DNA of 64,000 nucleotides from Bacteroidota bacterium. GTDB lineage: Bacteria; Bacteroidota; Ignavibacteria; UBA10030; UBA6906. The notes beneath the pieces were generated by a model, which was not told where the DNA came from, made no database searches, and saw only the letters and a program-made list of their open reading frames with translations. Below are positions 6,650 to 54,873 of this stretch, one piece after another. The stretch covers positions 1 through 64,000 of the forward strand of contig JAUQWO010000081.1 in the NCBI GenBank assembly GCA_030835135.1, written 5' to 3'. A program made the position numbers and the translations under genes. The number at the start of each line of letters is the position of its first letter. The stretch's first letter is position 1.

Positions 6650-6662
6650 CGGCTGACGCGTG

Positions 6663-8975
6663 ATGTGGCGGATCACCCTTCTTCTCCTCGGTGTCAGCCT
6701 CTCCGCCACCGCTCAGGTGCGGTACGATCTCCACGGCCGCATTGCCGACCGTGTAACGGGTGAACCCCTTCCCGCGGCACATGTCCGCATCCTGCATTCC
6801 TCCCGTGGCACCATCACCGGCACCGCCGGCGGCTACACTCTCCAACTCGAACCGGGCACCCACACGGTCGTGGTTCGCATGCTGGGATACCGCCCCGATA
6901 CAACAGTGGTCTCCGTCCACGCTGATACCCGGCACGATGTTTCGCTCGACCCTTCGGATATCGTTCTCCCCGAGGTGCTGGTCACTTCGGAGGACCCCGC
7001 AGTCGAGATCATCCGCAGGGCCATCGCCGCAAAGCACGGATGGATCGACCGCCTCACGTCCTTCCAGGCCAATGGCTTCACCCGACAGGTACTCCACCGC
7101 GATACCAGCATCGCAAGCATCACGGAGTCATTCACCACCGTCTACTGGCAACAGGGCGACACCCTGCGGGAAGTGGTGACGCAACGGCGGCAAACCGAGA
7201 ACGTGAAGGGCGCGTTCAATTTCGCGTCCGTGGGCAGGATCATCAACTTCAACGACGACGAGGTGCGGTTCATCGGGTACACGTTCGTCGGCCCGACCGC
7301 GGACGATGCCCTGGATGAGTACCGGTACAAACTCCTGCACACCGAAAAGAACCGGGGTCACGATGTCTACGTCATCCAGATGACCCCGCGCAGCCGTACG
7401 ACACCCCTCTTCAACGGCACGATCCGTATCGCCGATATTTCCTATGCACTTGTCGGCGTGGATGTCGTGCCCAATGAGGTCTTCACCATCCCGTTCGTCA
7501 AGTCGCTCCGGGTACGGTATCGCCAGCAATTCTCGCTCTATCAGGACGATTTCTGGATGCCGGTGGACATCCGGATCGACGGGCATGCCGAGATCGGTGC
7601 CGCGGGATTTTCACTTCCGGCCATCGGCTTCGAGCAGACGTCGATCCTCTCGGACTACTTCATCAATCCCGTCCTTCCCGATAGTCTCTTCCGGCGGCCG
7701 CGCCTCATCGTGGACTCGTCTGCGGTCCGGTACGACTCGACGTTCTGGAAGACCAACGACGTTCTTCCCCTCTCCCCGGAAGAGAAGGTCGCCTACGCCT
7801 CTCTGGATAGCACCAGGACCCTGGAGGTTCAGTTCCGCCCGGGTGGCATCTCCGCAACCCTCGGTGGCGGCGGCGCCGCGGGATCCCTGCTCTCCCTCCT
7901 CGATGTGTCCTTCAATCGCGTAGAAGGCTTCCACCTCGGGGTGGACTATCATGACGACCGGGTCATGCCTCTGCTCGGCATCAACGCCGGACTTGCCTAC
8001 GGATTCTCGGACATGCGCACGAAATACCGCCTGGGTGCTACGGTGTTCACCTCGGATGCGCACCATTTCGGCATCGGCGCGGAGGTCTATCGGACCATGG
8101 ACCACCGTCCCGGTGGCGACGACTACGGGCCGCTCGCGAACTCGGTTACGTGCCTGCTCGCACGCAACGATTACCATGACTACCATGAAGCCGAAGGATG
8201 GCGGGGGTTTGCCAAGGTTGCATCAGGACGCCGGCTGACCGCTCAATTCTCTCTCGTCAGTGAGGACCATCGCGCGGTGCCGAACCGGACATCGTTCTCG
8301 CTCTTTGCGCGCTCGCGCTCCTACCGGGAGAATCCCCTGGTACCGGAAGGTACGCTCCGCGGATTCCAGGTCCGCGCTCGCATCGGCGATCCGCCAGTGC
8401 CGCTCGGGATGGTCCGCACGAATGCGCTGGAGCTCTCCATCGAGCACTCAACACCATCGCTGCTCTCAAGTAGTTACGATTTCACCCGGTACGAAGGTCA
8501 TGGGACACTCGTGATCCCGACGTTCGCACCCGGACTCCTTTTCCGTCCGGACCTCACCGTGATGGTCTCGGCCGGCGATCTTCGCGGGACACATGTCCCC
8601 ATCCAGCGACTGTTCAACGTCGAATCGGCGTCGAGCGGGTACGGTCCGTCGGGGGTCATGCGCAGCATGGATGTGAAAGAATACGGAGGGACCGGCTATC
8701 TCGCATTCCATGCCGAACACAATTTCCGGTCGCTGCCCTTCCTTGCACTGGGTATCCCGTTCCTGTATGAGAACAATTGGGAATTCCTGATCCATGGCGG
8801 CGCTGCGCGGACCTGGTCCTCCGGCCGCACCGTGAACCCGTACCGCACCGGATGGTATTCGGAACTCGGATTCGGCGTGAACAGGATCTTCGATATTCTC
8901 CGCGCCGATTGCACCTGGCGCCTCAGCGAACCACGTCCCGTCCGCTTCACCCTGGGTGTTGTCCGCATCCTCTGA
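6663..8975 (+). CDS. DUF5686 / carboxypeptidase-regulatory-like outer-membrane-type protein
   Basis: I took the ATG at 6663; an in-frame GTG just before it at 6660 is possible. The 770-residue product has a signal peptide ending near SATAQ, then a carboxypeptidase-regulatory-like plug-type domain (about residues 20-105: DLHGRIADRVTGEPLPAAHVRI). A long DUF5686 region follows, starting at the EVLVTSEDPAVEIIRRAI segment. The C-terminal half is rich in alternating, aromatic-bounded strands, which suggests an outer-membrane beta-barrel. DUF5686 proteins are typical of Bacteroidota-type envelopes; their function is unknown. It shares an operon with the 6191 gene. Confidence 0.82.
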   Translation: MWRITLLLLGVSLSATAQVRYDLHGRIADRVTGEPLPAAHVRILHSSRGTITGTAGGYTLQLEPGTHTVVVRMLGYRPDTTVVSVHADTRHDVSLDPSDIVLPEVLVTSEDPAVEIIRRAIAAKHGWIDRLTSFQANGFTRQVLHRDTSIASITESFTTVYWQQGDTLREVVTQRRQTENVKGAFNFASVGRIINFNDDEVRFIGYTFVGPTADDALDEYRYKLLHTEKNRGHDVYVIQMTPRSRTTPLFNGTIRIADISYALVGVDVVPNEVFTIPFVKSLRVRYRQQFSLYQDDFWMPVDIRIDGHAEIGAAGFSLPAIGFEQTSILSDYFINPVLPDSLFRRPRLIVDSSAVRYDSTFWKTNDVLPLSPEEKVAYASLDSTRTLEVQFRPGGISATLGGGGAAGSLLSLLDVSFNRVEGFHLGVDYHDDRVMPLLGINAGLAYGFSDMRTKYRLGATVFTSDAHHFGIGAEVYRTMDHRPGGDDYGPLANSVTCLLARNDYHDYHEAEGWRGFAKVASGRRLTAQFSLVSEDHRAVPNRTSFSLFARSRSYRENPLVPEGTLRGFQVRARIGDPPVPLGMVRTNALELSIEHSTPSLLSSSYDFTRYEGHGTLVIPTFAPGLLFRPDLTVMVSAGDLRGTHVPIQRLFNVESASSGYGPSGVMRSMDVKEYGGTGYLAFHAEHNFRSLPFLALGIPFLYENNWEFLIHGGAARTWSSGRTVNPYRTGWYSELGFGVNRIFDILRADCTWRLSEPRPVRFTLGVVRIL

Positions 8976-23033: not shown

Positions 23034-24905
23034 ATGAACTTTCGTACCATCATCGGGATCACCGCCGTTGTCGGCGGGATCGCAGCCGGCGTGGCAGGCG
23101 AGAAGACGTTCGTGTCCTTGCGCAACTTCAAGGACCAGGAGCTCAAATCCGCCGGCTTCGAGCTCCGCCGGCCGGCAACGATCCATATCACCGGTCTGGG
23201 CGGCGGCGGCAATCAGGGATGGTCCTACAAGAGCGACAGGATGTACGCCTATGGATGGATCATCGATGCCACCACGCGCCGTCCGGTGTGGGAGATGTCT
23301 GTCCGTAACACACAGAGGTCCCGCAACGACCGCTCCTTCGACGGCGACGTCTCCCTGGAACCGGGCAGGTACGAAGCGTACTTCGCCGCGACCACGTTCG
23401 CCTATCATACCACGTTCACGCACTTCAACGTCAACGTCGATCACCGCCAGAAGCCACTCTTCGGCCCGGCAAAGGGGAACAACGGACGGCATTTCTTCTC
23501 CTGGATCACCGATTGGTGGAGTGATGACATCACGGACGAGTGGAATGTCCGTGCCGGGGGATGGGGCATGGACCTGTCGGCCGACGAATCGACCGCCCGC
23601 TCCATCAGTTCGTTCCGCCCCCCGTTCACGGATCCGGCGATCGTCTTCGCTGCAACGAAACTCGGCGACGATGCCTATGTCCAACAGGAATTCTCTCTCT
23701 CTGCACCCACGACCGTCATCGTCCGCGCCATTGGCGAGGGGATGCAGGGTGCGGAGTGCGTGGACTGCGGTTGGATCGTGAACACGCAGACCCGCGAACG
23801 GGTCTGGTCGGCCTCCTGGGACGATGCCGAACCCGCCGGTGGCGGACGGAAGAACCTGACGACCGAATCCGATGTGCGTCTGGACCCCGGGACGTATGCC
23901 GTCTATGCGATCACCGACGACAGCCACTCCAACGCGGACTGGAACGACGCGCCCCCCTTCGATCCCTACAACTGGGGGATCACCATCGCGATCCCTGATG
24001 AGAAAGAACGCCGCGCCTTTTCCCTTGCCGCCCCCAAGGCCGAAGAACCGGTCATCGTCCGCATTACCCGCGTGAAGGACAACGAGAGCCGCTCGGAAGG
24101 ATTCACCCTCAAGCAGGATGCGAAGGTGCACATCTATGCCTTCGGCGAACGCGACAATACCAGCCGCTCCATGGCGGATTACGCGACGATCATCGATGCC
24201 AAGACCCGTGACCGGGTCTGGACCATGGATGTGGACCGGACCAGCCATGCAGGCGGCGCAGCCAAGAACAGGTATGTGGATGAGGTGATCGCACTCCCGC
24301 GCGGCAACTACATCGTGAACTATGTCACGGACGACTCGCACGCGTACGAGGACTGGAACGACAATCCGCCGTTCGACAAGGAAAACTACGGGATCACGAT
24401 CACCGCATCCGGTGGGTGGAACACCGCAGGCCTCGTCAGCAAGTACGTCGAGGAAAAGGACAAGAGCATCATCGCGCAGCTCATCCGCATGAGGGATGAT
24501 GAGGACCGGTCCAACCGTTTCACGCTGGACCGCACGACGCGGATCAGGGTCTACGCGATCGGTGAAGGACAGGGGCGCGATATGTACGACTACGGATGGA
24601 TCGAAGACGCGCGCACCAGAACGGTGGTCTGGGAGATGACCTACGGCATGACGTTCCATGCAGGCGGCGGCCGGAAGAACAGGATGGTCAATACGTCCAT
24701 CGTCCTGGACAAAGGGGACTATGTGCTTCGCTTCCGGTCCGACGATTCGCATTCGTATGCGGATTGGAATGTCGACCCACCGGACGACCGCGAGTATTGG
24801 GGCATCACCCTGTACAGAGACGTCACGCCGGAGCCGCCACAGCCTCCCACCCCGCCGGAAGCCGGGGTGCCGGTCCCCCCTCAACCGGGGAAGAGACCAC
24901 ACTGA
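23034..24905 (+). CDS. Secreted protein with four copies of an unrecognised ~120-residue module
   Basis: The ATG at 23034 follows GGAGAGG and begins a signal peptide (MNFRTIIGITAVVGGIAAGVAG). The 623-residue product consists of four related modules, at about residues 25-140, 205-325, 340-460 and 470-590. Modules 2-4 share, in order, a YAIGEG-like strand, a 'GWIxDAxTRxxVW' turn, an AGGGxKNR loop and the strongly conserved DDSHxxxDWNxxPPxDxxxWGIT block. Module 1 lacks that block. The C-terminal ~35 residues are Pro-rich and there is no T9SS sorting domain. I do not recognise the module as a named family. Acidic residues and the repeated DDSH/DWN suggest metal or carbohydrate binding, which is a guess. 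Confidence 0.72.
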   Translation: MNFRTIIGITAVVGGIAAGVAGEKTFVSLRNFKDQELKSAGFELRRPATIHITGLGGGGNQGWSYKSDRMYAYGWIIDATTRRPVWEMSVRNTQRSRNDRSFDGDVSLEPGRYEAYFAATTFAYHTTFTHFNVNVDHRQKPLFGPAKGNNGRHFFSWITDWWSDDITDEWNVRAGGWGMDLSADESTARSISSFRPPFTDPAIVFAATKLGDDAYVQQEFSLSAPTTVIVRAIGEGMQGAECVDCGWIVNTQTRERVWSASWDDAEPAGGGRKNLTTESDVRLDPGTYAVYAITDDSHSNADWNDAPPFDPYNWGITIAIPDEKERRAFSLAAPKAEEPVIVRITRVKDNESRSEGFTLKQDAKVHIYAFGERDNTSRSMADYATIIDAKTRDRVWTMDVDRTSHAGGAAKNRYVDEVIALPRGNYIVNYVTDDSHAYEDWNDNPPFDKENYGITITASGGWNTAGLVSKYVEEKDKSIIAQLIRMRDDEDRSNRFTLDRTTRIRVYAIGEGQGRDMYDYGWIEDARTRTVVWEMTYGMTFHAGGGRKNRMVNTSIVLDKGDYVLRFRSDDSHSYADWNVDPPDDREYWGITLYRDVTPEPPQPPTPPEAGVPVPPQPGKRPH

Positions 24906-25670: not shown

Positions 25671-27665
25671 ATGTCAACCCACGATCTTGTCAGTCGCGAA
25701 AGGAATGTATTGATCGGTTTGCTACGACGTTCGATCTATGTCTTTCTTCTCTTCGCCCTCACTCTGCCGTCGGCCGCACAGCAGCAGTATCGCATCGATA
25801 CGCTTGCCCGCGCACCCGAGGCCCAATATCCGTCGGGGATCGCAGTGGACCCGCATGGGGGTGCCCGGTTCTTCTTCACTGAGAAGAACAGCGGACGGGT
25901 ACGCCTGTTCGACGGGAAGTTGCGCCGTGAACCCTTCCTCACCGTCCCTGTCGAAAGTGATGGCGAGGAAGGATTGCTCGGCATCGCGCTCCATCCCGCC
26001 TATCCCGACACCCCGTACGTTTTCATCTATTATGTCCGCGCGATGGACCGTCTGGGTATCGTGGAACGGTATACCGATTCCTCCGGCTACGGCATCCACC
26101 CTACCCTGATCATGGTGATCCCTCGCATGAACGATGCCACGGAACACAATGGCGGCGTTCTCGCATGCGGGCCGGATGGCAAATTGTACATCGGCGTCGG
26201 CGATCATCGCACCCAGCGTGCATGGACACAGGACACCACGAACCGCTCGGCGGTGTGGGGGAAGATCCTGCGCATCGGATCGGATGGCAGCATGCCATCG
26301 GACAATCCCGACCCGCGCCGGCCATTCTGGGCATGGGGGCTGCGCAACCCGCAAGGACTGACATTCGACCCCGCAACAGGCGACCTGTACTGCACGGACG
26401 GCGGGACGGACGGGATCAATGCCGTGTTCCGGGTGCGCAAGGGAGACAACCTCGGATGGCCGGCATCCGACCGTTCCCACTCGCCCGTCACGACATATGC
26501 GCTGTATCAATTCCCTGAAGGCAAGCAACCTGCCCTGACGGGCATCGCCGTGTACACCAGGGACGCATTCCCCAACCTCACGGGTCACATCCTCTTCTGC
26601 TCGAACGCACAACCCGCGGTCTGGGAAGGCGTGCTGTCCGAACGCGGCGACTCCCTGCTCGCGCAACAGCTTCTCACCTATCCGTCCGGCTTCGCCGATA
26701 TGCAGATCGGCGGCGATGGCTGCATTTACCTGACGAACGGTCCCTATATCTCAAGCAAGATCCTCCGGATCGCGCCGGTCGCGCCGGTCTTCACGTCACG
26801 CCCGCCGGACTCTGCAACGCAGGGCAGCCCCTGGTCCTACACACCCGTGACCACCGGCACTCCGCCGGTGGTCCGGCTGCTCTCTGGCCCCGACGGGATG
26901 ACCTGCGATGGTCAGACAGGGACACTCCACTGGATCCCGACGAACGAGCAAGCGATGGAAGGCACGGCGACGGTGGTCCTCGAAGCACGGAATGGTGGCG
27001 GGACCGCCGAACAGCGCGCCCGGATCAGGATCTTCAATACGAACGATCCGCCCGGCCCGTTCTCTCCCCTGCCTCCCGCCGACCGCGAGGTCCTGAGTTT
27101 CTCCGGGAGCGATCCCGAGATCACGCTGCACTGGGAGCGTTCCATCGATCCCGACAACGATTCACTGCAGTACATCGTGGAAGTCGACACGGTGCCGGGA
27201 TTTCAGACGCGCGCGTATCTGTTCCTCGCCGAGGGCGCCGATTCGATCCACATCCGGCTGCCGCGTCCGGCATCCGTCTATTACTGGCGCGTCATCGCCA
27301 GCGACGGGAGCCTCTCCACCACCGCGGTGCCATCGTCAGGACGCATCTCGGTCTCATATATCACACCACCGCAGGAACGGCCCCAGCGAACGGTCGTGGT
27401 CGAACCGGCGGCAGTGGAGCAACGCGACCCGAATCCGTTCCCACCTTCCGCGGGGATCACCTATACCGTGCGCCACGCGGGACATGTACGGCTGGCCGTG
27501 TTCAATCTGCTGGGGCAGGAGATCACCAGGGTGGTCGAGGGGAATCAACAGGAAGGTGTGTATGAAGTGCCGTTCACGCGGCTCAACCTCCCGAGCGGCG
27601 TGTATTTCTACCGCCTCCAGGGGCCGGGAGTGTTCGAGACCAAGAAGATCGTCATCGCGCGATGA
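25671..27665 (+). CDS. PQQ-type glucose/sorbosone dehydrogenase-like protein with T9SS-type C-terminus
   Basis: ATG 25671 gives 664 residues; an in-frame TTG at 25710 with a better ribosome site (AAGGA) is a plausible alternative and keeps the signal peptide. Residues ~45-370 form a six-bladed propeller of the GSDH family, seen in SDGEEGLLGIALHPAY, NDATEHNGGVLACGPDGKLYIGVGD and WAWGLRNPQGLTFDP. A cadherin/Ig-like segment (~375-465) and an FnIII-like domain (~470-565) follow. The last ~85 residues are a sorting domain with DPNPFPPS in place of the usual NYPNPFNP and a clear LPSGVYFYRL. The enzyme probably oxidises sugars outside the cell; the natural substrate and electron acceptor are unknown. 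Confidence 0.85.
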   Translation: MSTHDLVSRERNVLIGLLRRSIYVFLLFALTLPSAAQQQYRIDTLARAPEAQYPSGIAVDPHGGARFFFTEKNSGRVRLFDGKLRREPFLTVPVESDGEEGLLGIALHPAYPDTPYVFIYYVRAMDRLGIVERYTDSSGYGIHPTLIMVIPRMNDATEHNGGVLACGPDGKLYIGVGDHRTQRAWTQDTTNRSAVWGKILRIGSDGSMPSDNPDPRRPFWAWGLRNPQGLTFDPATGDLYCTDGGTDGINAVFRVRKGDNLGWPASDRSHSPVTTYALYQFPEGKQPALTGIAVYTRDAFPNLTGHILFCSNAQPAVWEGVLSERGDSLLAQQLLTYPSGFADMQIGGDGCIYLTNGPYISSKILRIAPVAPVFTSRPPDSATQGSPWSYTPVTTGTPPVVRLLSGPDGMTCDGQTGTLHWIPTNEQAMEGTATVVLEARNGGGTAEQRARIRIFNTNDPPGPFSPLPPADREVLSFSGSDPEITLHWERSIDPDNDSLQYIVEVDTVPGFQTRAYLFLAEGADSIHIRLPRPASVYYWRVIASDGSLSTTAVPSSGRISVSYITPPQERPQRTVVVEPAAVEQRDPNPFPPSAGITYTVRHAGHVRLAVFNLLGQEITRVVEGNQQEGVYEVPFTRLNLPSGVYFYRLQGPGVFETKKIVIAR

Positions 27666-27674
27666 CGGCGGACC

Positions 27675-28907
27675 TCATCGCGAACGCTTGATCACGACAA
27701 TGGTCTTGTCGTCGGAGTAGTCCGTCATCCGGCTGAAGACCTGGACCTCCTCGAGCAGGAGTGCGCAGATCTCCTTCGCTGTCCGCTTCCGGTGCTGCCG
27801 CAATGCATGCGTCAACCGCCCCTCGCCGTACATCTCACCCCGCTCGTTCGACGCTTCTACCATGCCATCCGTATAGAGCAGCATGATGTCGCCCCGGTTC
27901 AGGATCGTGAAGTCCGAGTGATACACCTCCCGCGGGAACGGTCCGATGATCTGGCCGGTGGCCGGCAACTTCTCCATATCGTTTGAATTCGCACGCAGGA
28001 CCACCGGGTTGGAATGCCCGGCGTTCACATAGATGACCAGTCCGCGGTCGGAGGAGTTCAGCTCCGCATACACCATCGAGATGAAGCGTTCCGCGCTGAA
28101 CGCCTTATTGACGAGGCTGTTCAGCCGCGTGACAAGAGACCCGATCTTCGTCTGATACTCCACAGCCATGCGCAACGCGCCGGACACATACAATGCTTGT
28201 GAGGCAGCCGACAGCCCCTTGCTCGCGGCATCCCCGATCACCACGCCGAGGCGCTCCTTGTCACCGGCCGCCTGCAGGTAATCGAAGAAATCTCCCCCCA
28301 CCACCCGGTCGGGCATGGAGATGCCGTACAGGTCATAGTTGTGGAATTTCAGCTCGTGCGCGGGCAGGATGCTCTTCTGGATGTCCCGCGCCTTGTCCAG
28401 ATCGGCCTCCAGCAGATGCGCCTTCTTTTCCGCCTTCCGGTTCTTCAGCACGGAGGTCAGGGCCGTACTGATGATGTTGAGCGCGAAGGTCATCTCCTGC
28501 TTCACATACGCCGCGGTGATCCCGATGACGTACTGGTACAGCGTGAAGGTCTTCCAGGTCAGCTTCTCGCCCACACCGGTGGCCGAGAAGACCTTGATCC
28601 CCTTCTTGAGCAGATACGGATTCGTTTCGCGCCCGATCACCGTCGCCTTCTTGGGCAACTGCTGGAAGAGCGGATACTCCTGGACGCGGATGCGGAAGTT
28701 CTTGTCGATCGCTTCCATCTCGCCGCTCTGGTGGATCAACCGGTACGTGCCGGTGCTGACCTCCAGTTTCCAGATCCGCCCGCCGCGGATGGGGATGTGC
28801 TCGCTCTGAATGATGCTCTCGAGAACGTGACTGAGCAGCTGTTCCTCGGTACGGAACTCCGCTTCGGCCAGGGTCTGAATGGTGCGATAAAGTTTGTGCT
28901 GGTCCAT
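27675..28907 (-). CDS. SpoIIE/PP2C-type serine phosphatase (RsbU-like)
   Basis: The 410-residue protein has an N-terminal ~165-residue sensor-like region with no clear family, a coiled-coil-like linker (LEADLDKARDIQKSILP) and a C-terminal SpoIIE phosphatase. Metal-binding aspartates are visible in VVGGDFFDYL, IGDAASKG, LYTDGMVEA and the final DDKTIVV. Such enzymes dephosphorylate anti-anti-sigma proteins, but no STAS or RsbW-type gene is in this window. It is last in a tightly packed operon (1-nt gap to the DUF1684 gene). Confidence 0.9.
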   Translation of the reverse strand: MDQHKLYRTIQTLAEAEFRTEEQLLSHVLESIIQSEHIPIRGGRIWKLEVSTGTYRLIHQSGEMEAIDKNFRIRVQEYPLFQQLPKKATVIGRETNPYLLKKGIKVFSATGVGEKLTWKTFTLYQYVIGITAAYVKQEMTFALNIISTALTSVLKNRKAEKKAHLLEADLDKARDIQKSILPAHELKFHNYDLYGISMPDRVVGGDFFDYLQAAGDKERLGVVIGDAASKGLSAASQALYVSGALRMAVEYQTKIGSLVTRLNSLVNKAFSAERFISMVYAELNSSDRGLVIYVNAGHSNPVVLRANSNDMEKLPATGQIIGPFPREVYHSDFTILNRGDIMLLYTDGMVEASNERGEMYGEGRLTHALRQHRKRTAKEICALLLEEVQVFSRMTDYSDDKTIVVIKRSR

Positions 28908-54643: not shown

Positions 54644-54680
54644 GGATCCGTTACCTTCCCGCGAAGGTGATCGTGATACC

Positions 54681-54821
54681 GGTGCCGGCAAGGTTTCCTG
54701 GCTTGTGACGCGTACCGCTCGCACATCCTTCCCGACCGTTACCGATCAGTGGATGGACAACGCCTGTCACGCACAGTTGCGGGGCAGCTTCCGATTCGAC
54801 GGAATTCCCTTTTCCAGCACC
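54681..54821 (-). promoter_or_regulatory. Cobalamin (B12) riboswitch aptamer
   Basis: Reading the minus strand, conserved blocks occur in order: AAGGGAA; a shortened GTCGAATCGG; the core GCTGCCCCGCAACTGT (about 54788-54773); CCACTG; GGGAAGG; and the B12 box GCCAGGAAACCTTGCC (about 54703-54684). The first and last segments, GGTGC and GCACC, close the basal stem. This matches the cobalamin aptamer well. It should repress the nrdJ genes when B12 is plentiful, although a B12-dependent enzyme under such control is uncommon. Confidence 0.92.
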
Positions 54822-54844
54822 ATTCTTGAAAAGAACTGGGTCCC

Positions 54845-54873
54845 AATATAACGGTCCCCCCCGCCATAGTCAA
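54845..54873 (-). promoter_or_regulatory. Promoter of the riboswitch-nrdJ transcript
   Basis: On the minus strand TTGACT (54873-54868), exactly 17 bp, TATATT (54850-54845). Transcription from about 54838 places the aptamer some 17 nt into a 286-nt leader. Confidence 0.7.

Follow-up and report, generated by a model that had tools for sequence, protein, structure and literature searches.

What kind of protein is encoded by the four-repeat gene in this DNA, and what might its repeats do? In the window (the whole stretch of 64,000 nucleotides that was analysed), an earlier note described this gene as encoding a secreted protein built from four copies of an unrecognised module. The start of the open reading frame agrees with the start positions of its orthologues in their alignment, and the encoded 623-residue protein begins with a signal-peptide-like sequence, in keeping with the claimed secretion; from this N-terminus we infer that the stand-alone protein is exported. 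Module proteins from other Bacteroidota families (L224-L234) carry an apparent membrane anchor and no cleavable signal at this position.

Table 1 Features of the module gene and of one nearby gene in the window.
Feature	Position	Strand	Basis
Gene for a probably exported four-module protein, 623 aa, stop included	23034..24905	+	open reading frame and orthologue starts
Putative signal peptide, residues 1-22	23034..23099	+	hydrophobic stretch, then AGE; N-terminus aligned in 26 orthologues
Module 1, degenerate (fold core retained, site residues gone)	23100..23435	+	module comparison, predicted structure, conservation
Trp-rich helix, residues 156-176, in the linker after module 1	23499..23561	+	predicted helix; conserved in orthologues
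Module 2	23634..23999	+	module comparison and module search
Acidic pair E235...D244, module 2	23736..23765	+	residue conservation
AGGxxKN loop, module 2	23835..23855	+	residue conservation
DDSH...WN..PP.D...WGIT block, module 2, DDSHSNADWNDAPPFDPYNWGIT	23916..23984	+	translation, motif, conservation
Module 3	24039..24413	+	module comparison and module search
Acidic pair E372...D382, module 3	24147..24179	+	residue conservation
AGGxxKN loop, module 3	24249..24269	+	residue conservation
DDSH...WN..PP.D...YGIT block, module 3, DDSHAYEDWNDNPPFDKENYGIT	24330..24398	+	translation, motif, conservation
Module 4	24453..24824	+	module comparison, module search, single-module structure prediction
Acidic pair E511...D519, module 4	24564..24590	+	residue conservation
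AGGxxKN loop, module 4	24660..24680	+	residue conservation
DDSH...WN..PP.D...WGIT block, module 4, DDSHSYADWNVDPPDDREYWGIT	24741..24809	+	translation, motif, conservation
Pro-rich C-terminal tail, mainly in the window protein's own family	24828..24902	+	orthologue alignment
SpoIIE-type phosphatase gene, 2.8 kb downstream of the module gene, opposite strand	27675..28907	-	

The three pairs formed by modules 2, 3 and 4 have 43 of 117, 49 of 117 and 53 of 120 residues identical (35–45%) over about 118 residues, with pairwise scores 33–40 standard deviations above those of shuffled copies. Module 1 scores 15–18 standard deviations above shuffles when compared with the other modules, across its first ~95 residues. 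The four-fold repeat is thus confirmed; module spacing is ~178, 137 and 139 residues, and the linker after module 1 is ~65 residues long. The motifs assigned to copies 2–4 hold in part. The DDSH...WGIT block is present in all three, but module 3 has YGIT in place of WGIT, and the GWI.DA.TR..VW turn is found in modules 1 and 4 but reads GWIVNTQTRERVW in module 2 and ATIIDAKTRDRVW in module 3. Copy 1, said to have lost the block, indeed lacks it entirely, as does module 1 of the orthologues.

Tandem copies within one gene could also be artefactual or have arisen by recent duplication at this locus, but the copies group by position and not by genome: in a module tree of moderate support, built from a short alignment, 74 of 76 module 2, 64 of 65 module 4 and 52 of 53 module 3 sequences cluster by position across phyla. 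In addition, orthologues are found in 74 of 100 related genomes, mostly as one gene with 42–74% identity. This explanation is therefore exceedingly improbable, and the repeat is neither local nor accidental. The position-wise clustering across phyla points to an old origin of the four-module arrangement.

When one genome per species was scanned, 348 encoding stretches were found, mostly in Ignavibacteria, Calditrichota and KSB1. The best 80 of these 348 lie on contigs titled, by the depositors themselves and mostly for metagenome bins, as Ignavibacteria or Bacteroidetes, Calditrichota, KSB1, Rhodothermales, Krumholzibacteria, Zixibacteria, Gemmatimonadota, Acidobacteriota and others. At the sensitivity used, phage and plasmid collections gave no match and viral contigs no relative. 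The gene shown here is the sole module gene of the window genome.

The window protein has no match in Pfam or NCBIfam up to E=10, no PDB chain is matched by the module profile up to E=10, and no credible chain was found in PDB by a profile of 26 orthologues. Matches of the relatives to Pfam are weak, cover short stretches and are nearly all sub-threshold. Together, these results support the claim that the module is unrecognised. DUF5013, DUF4458, DUF6786, CopC and AMPK1_CBM, each weakly and briefly matched by some relatives and below curated cut-offs where these are shown, were set aside as generic beta-hairpin similarity. The sources searched contain no description of the module, of its site or of its use with four different outputs; the fold type and the host systems are of known kinds.

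Structure prediction gave a pLDDT of 83.7 for the full protein. For module 4 alone, a check named in the earlier note, it gave a high-confidence jelly-roll sandwich of eight strands (pLDDT 93.0, pTM 0.86). Foldseek returned no match for the single module at E < 0.001. With VIA-align, the module 4 model aligned with Kremen CUB (Z 8.4, 3.0 A, 97 aligned), PPC domain 5sv5 (Z 8.1, 2.8 A, 91 aligned), the ColG collagen-binding domain (Z 7.6, 3.3 A, 90 aligned), C1s CUB1 (Z 7.3, 3.3 A, 96 aligned) and a porphyran-binding CBM (Z 6.4, 4.0 A, 98 aligned), values at a level common for sandwiches, which therefore indicate fold type and not kinship. Influenza haemagglutinin heads and enterotoxin C-terminal domains, also among the fold matches, share only this common sandwich likeness.

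Profile comparisons did not extend the resemblance in shape. The CUB profile (PF00431) matched none of 23 modules to E=10, and its hhalign score with the deep alignment, 14.3, falls within the shuffled range (null 11.2, SD 1.9, max 15.9). For PPC (PF04151), no Pfam match was found for the window protein or its modules; a shallow alignment of nine sequences gave 21.3 against a null maximum of 19.5, a signal that faded with the deeper alignment (12.3 against a null of 10.4, SD 2.1). CUB and PPC were therefore both rejected by profile, and a single module is predicted to be an eight-strand jelly-roll sandwich whose shape, but not whose sequence profile, is CUB/PPC-like. CUB domains of the calcium-binding C1s/MASP type are likewise extracellular and often in tandem, with Z values of 6–8 to the predicted module. 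The module differs from them in having no conserved cysteines; bacterial CUB matches likewise lack most of the conserved disulphide cysteines usual in animal CUBs. PPC and the ColG domain share with it the predicted sandwich, secretion and a G.Y ahead of a late strand, but have another conserved set and are joined to peptidases, whereas no peptidase domain was present in the module host proteins scanned.

Across 237 copies of modules 2–4, the conserved set exceeds that of the earlier note, as E-x(7-9)-D and AGGxxKN are also members. In module 4 numbering, E511, D519, G544, G545, K548, N549, D570 and H573 are about 98% conserved, and W578, N579 and P583 about 97%. In nearly all of 77 copies of module 1 these site residues are lost or replaced, while the core residues W522, I523, W533, L558, G561 and Y563 are kept at 96–100%. 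Modules within sensor proteins (n=22; see below) retain E in 90%, D in 90%, N in 100%, D in 90% and H in 90%. Because the site residues are lost jointly in module 1 and the core is kept, one functional site is suggested rather than stability alone. E, D, GG, K, N, D, H, WN and PP probably form this site, and a structural role is possible for the invariant Gly, Trp and Pro. The suggestion of a binding site thus finds support in near-invariance across phyla, joint loss in module 1 and retention in unrelated host proteins, and a separate role for copy 1 would be consistent with a fold core that has no site residues.

The module search, covering 245 genomes of the class and 395 of the phylum, revealed a second architecture, in which a single module sits within proteins of ~1250–1580 residues. 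The sensor hosts scanned combine Reg_prop propeller repeats, the module, Y_Y_Y and an output domain, the latter being a SpoIIE phosphatase (L166, L168), HisKA/HATPase (L172, L218), HisKA_3/HATPase (L217, L219) or HisKA/HATPase/REC/AraC (L111). All 21 sensor modules in the tree form one clade (support 0.81). In one Calditrichia genome the stand-alone form, the six-module form and several of the sensors occur together. These hosts are of the Reg_prop/Y_Y_Y periplasmic type known from hybrid two-component and related systems; relatives of the window module sit inside them, but the window protein itself has no propeller repeats, Y_Y_Y, membrane or cytoplasmic output (by Pfam) or kinase, and the inserted module is without a Pfam model. 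No module-bearing sensor is encoded in the window's own genome. We know of no description of this module inserted in Reg_prop/Y_Y_Y sensors. At L166 (G234:C38:169500-186500), four module-bearing SpoIIE sensors of ~1250 residues each follow one another, and at L173:541-2100 (+) the module is C-terminal to a beta-lactamase-family hydrolase (PF00144).

Neighbour counts for the stand-alone genes are descriptive, as the profiles were built from the loci themselves without a random-gene background. An Omp85-superfamily gene is the next same-strand gene in 18 of 78 loci, within ~160 bp, and lies downstream in Ignavibacteria and upstream in Calditrichota. A DUF4097 gene is adjacent in 10 loci; DUF4097 belongs to the Toastrack class, which is tied to envelope-stress systems (PMC11237479). 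A six-module variant of 852 aa (L216:3896-6451, +) is flanked by an Omp85-type gene on one side and a DUF4097 gene on the other. A Trp/Phe-rich stretch of FFSWI type occurs in the linker helix region of the window protein and in the neighbouring DUF4097 proteins at L079 and L095, which may be coincidence. In the window, the Omp85-like match proved to be a DUF5686 protein with a CarboxypepD_reg-like domain (6660-8975, +), 14 kb away, a distant relative of the Omp85-type neighbours and not their counterpart. Most Ignavibacterial loci have no single fixed partner gene, so gene linkage is lineage-dependent.

Signalling genes are a further kind of neighbour. ECF sigma and anti-sigma-like genes diverge from a DUF6249-module pair at L083, L089 (titled KSB1) and L103 (titled Caldithrix). 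In other Bacteroidota families, a divergent SpoIIE phosphatase gene lies at 5–411 bp in 7 of 11 genomes, and 7 of the 11, six of them at these SpoIIE loci, have STAS and RsbW-type genes nearby; at L098 a divergent SpoIIE gene lies at 87 bp. SpoIIE-type phosphatases target STAS anti-anti-sigma factors (PMC11418112). The resemblance to SpoIIE/RsbU-STAS-RsbW partner switching thus consists in module-bearing proteins fused to, or divergent from, SpoIIE phosphatases and in STAS and RsbW-type genes near the module gene in seven loci; it differs in that the tie to the window gene is drawn from relatives, in which all three kinds of gene occur together with the module gene. The window's own SpoIIE gene is separated from the module gene by intervening genes, in a ~2.8-kb linkage also seen at five other loci, and no STAS or RsbW gene lies within 6 kb of the module gene. 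This SpoIIE gene is a possible signalling link, weak by itself. At five loci (L046, L048, L049, L052, L056), a histidine kinase gene is directly upstream on the opposite strand, and the two scanned, at L048 and L052, have cNMP-binding and GAF domains.

Taken together, we favour, at a probability of roughly 60%, an undescribed extracytoplasmic domain that binds a ligand or ion and is probably sensory, the stand-alone protein being a multivalent binder in envelope signalling. In the predicted eight-strand jelly roll of an intact copy, the invariant residues fall in loops 3-4 (E...D), 5-6 (AGGxxKN) and 7-8 (D.SH...WN..PP). Because of the strand order in such a fold, strand parity would place these loops at one end, where they could make up a single acidic pocket that includes His and Asn and would most likely accommodate a cation together with a ligand group. 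The exported protein would offer three such pockets (modules 2–4), with copy 1 and the Trp-rich helix probably serving as a docking part. A role in envelope sensing is suggested by the presence of the module in SpoIIE and histidine-kinase sensors and by stand-alone genes beside signalling genes or beside Omp85 and DUF4097 genes.

A narrower form of this reading, which is possible but tentative, is a CUB-like calcium site, in which a Ca2+ ion coordinated by Glu/Asp/Asp would enable the site to bind a Lys or Arg on a partner protein. The C1s CUB1 site comprises Glu45, Tyr52, Asp53, Asp98 and Ser100; Glu45, Asp98 and Ser100 hold the partner lysine, Asp53 binds calcium and Tyr52 matters (PMC4222235). 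Kremen CUB and C1s CUB1 are among the best VIA matches, E511, Y518, D519, D570 and S572 of module 4 match the local C1s spacings (E+7 Y, E+8 D; D+2 S), and hhalign places DYGWI on the CUB YD and TDDS on the CUB SD.S. Such spacing is a hypothesis by analogy, a lead rather than a test: the hhalign score lies in the shuffled range, Z values near 8 are common for unrelated sandwiches, the E–D spacing is 9 in module 2 and 10 in module 3, and the hosts here are bacterial sensors. The invariant His, KN of AGGxxKN, and WN..PP are extra to CUB, and to our knowledge have no counterpart there.

The same pocket, with the conserved Trp, might instead bind a cell-wall or exopolysaccharide glycan, a somewhat more doubtful option. 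Sugar binding is frequent among jelly-roll folds, the fold matches include a porphyran-binding CBM, and the site is rich in Asp, His, Trp and Asn; but the AMPK1_CBM matches of relatives are below cut-off and span ~40 residues, and among the neighbours identified in the neighbourhoods read, neither a fusion to a glycoside hydrolase nor an obvious polysaccharide-utilisation locus was noticed. A structural or adhesive role, in which the repeat has no specific ligand and its conserved residues stabilise the fold, perhaps by forming a Lys-Asn isopeptide bond, is unlikely. Such a bond would suit the K, N and acidic residues that are invariant within this beta sandwich, and tandem domain copies are usual among adhesins. 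However, copy 1 keeps the fold core without the site residues, ~18% of sensor modules have D or R in place of the site K, and single copies inserted in signalling propellers would be odd for a spacer.

Returning to the ligand-binding sensory domain, a more speculative extension is a new sensory family present in several FCB phyla, in which the secreted multi-pocket protein and the propeller sensors detect the same extracellular ligand, and the secreted form might serve as a co-receptor in the periplasm or at the surface, acting upstream of both SpoIIE partner switching and the regulation of envelope stress. With the present analysis, a widely conserved, unannotated protein of largely uncultured phyla gains a defined domain, together with a candidate site and a role that can be tested. 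Since the fusions link one module to four signalling outputs, its ligand would tell what these sensors detect, and the present alignments could serve to build a Pfam-type model.

Two other features of the window were noted. A large secreted protein is encoded at 25671-27665 (+), judged by eye to have a propeller of sugar-dehydrogenase type and a T9SS-like C-terminus, and a cobalamin riboswitch (Rfam RF00174, 72 bits) lies at 54670-54856 (-).
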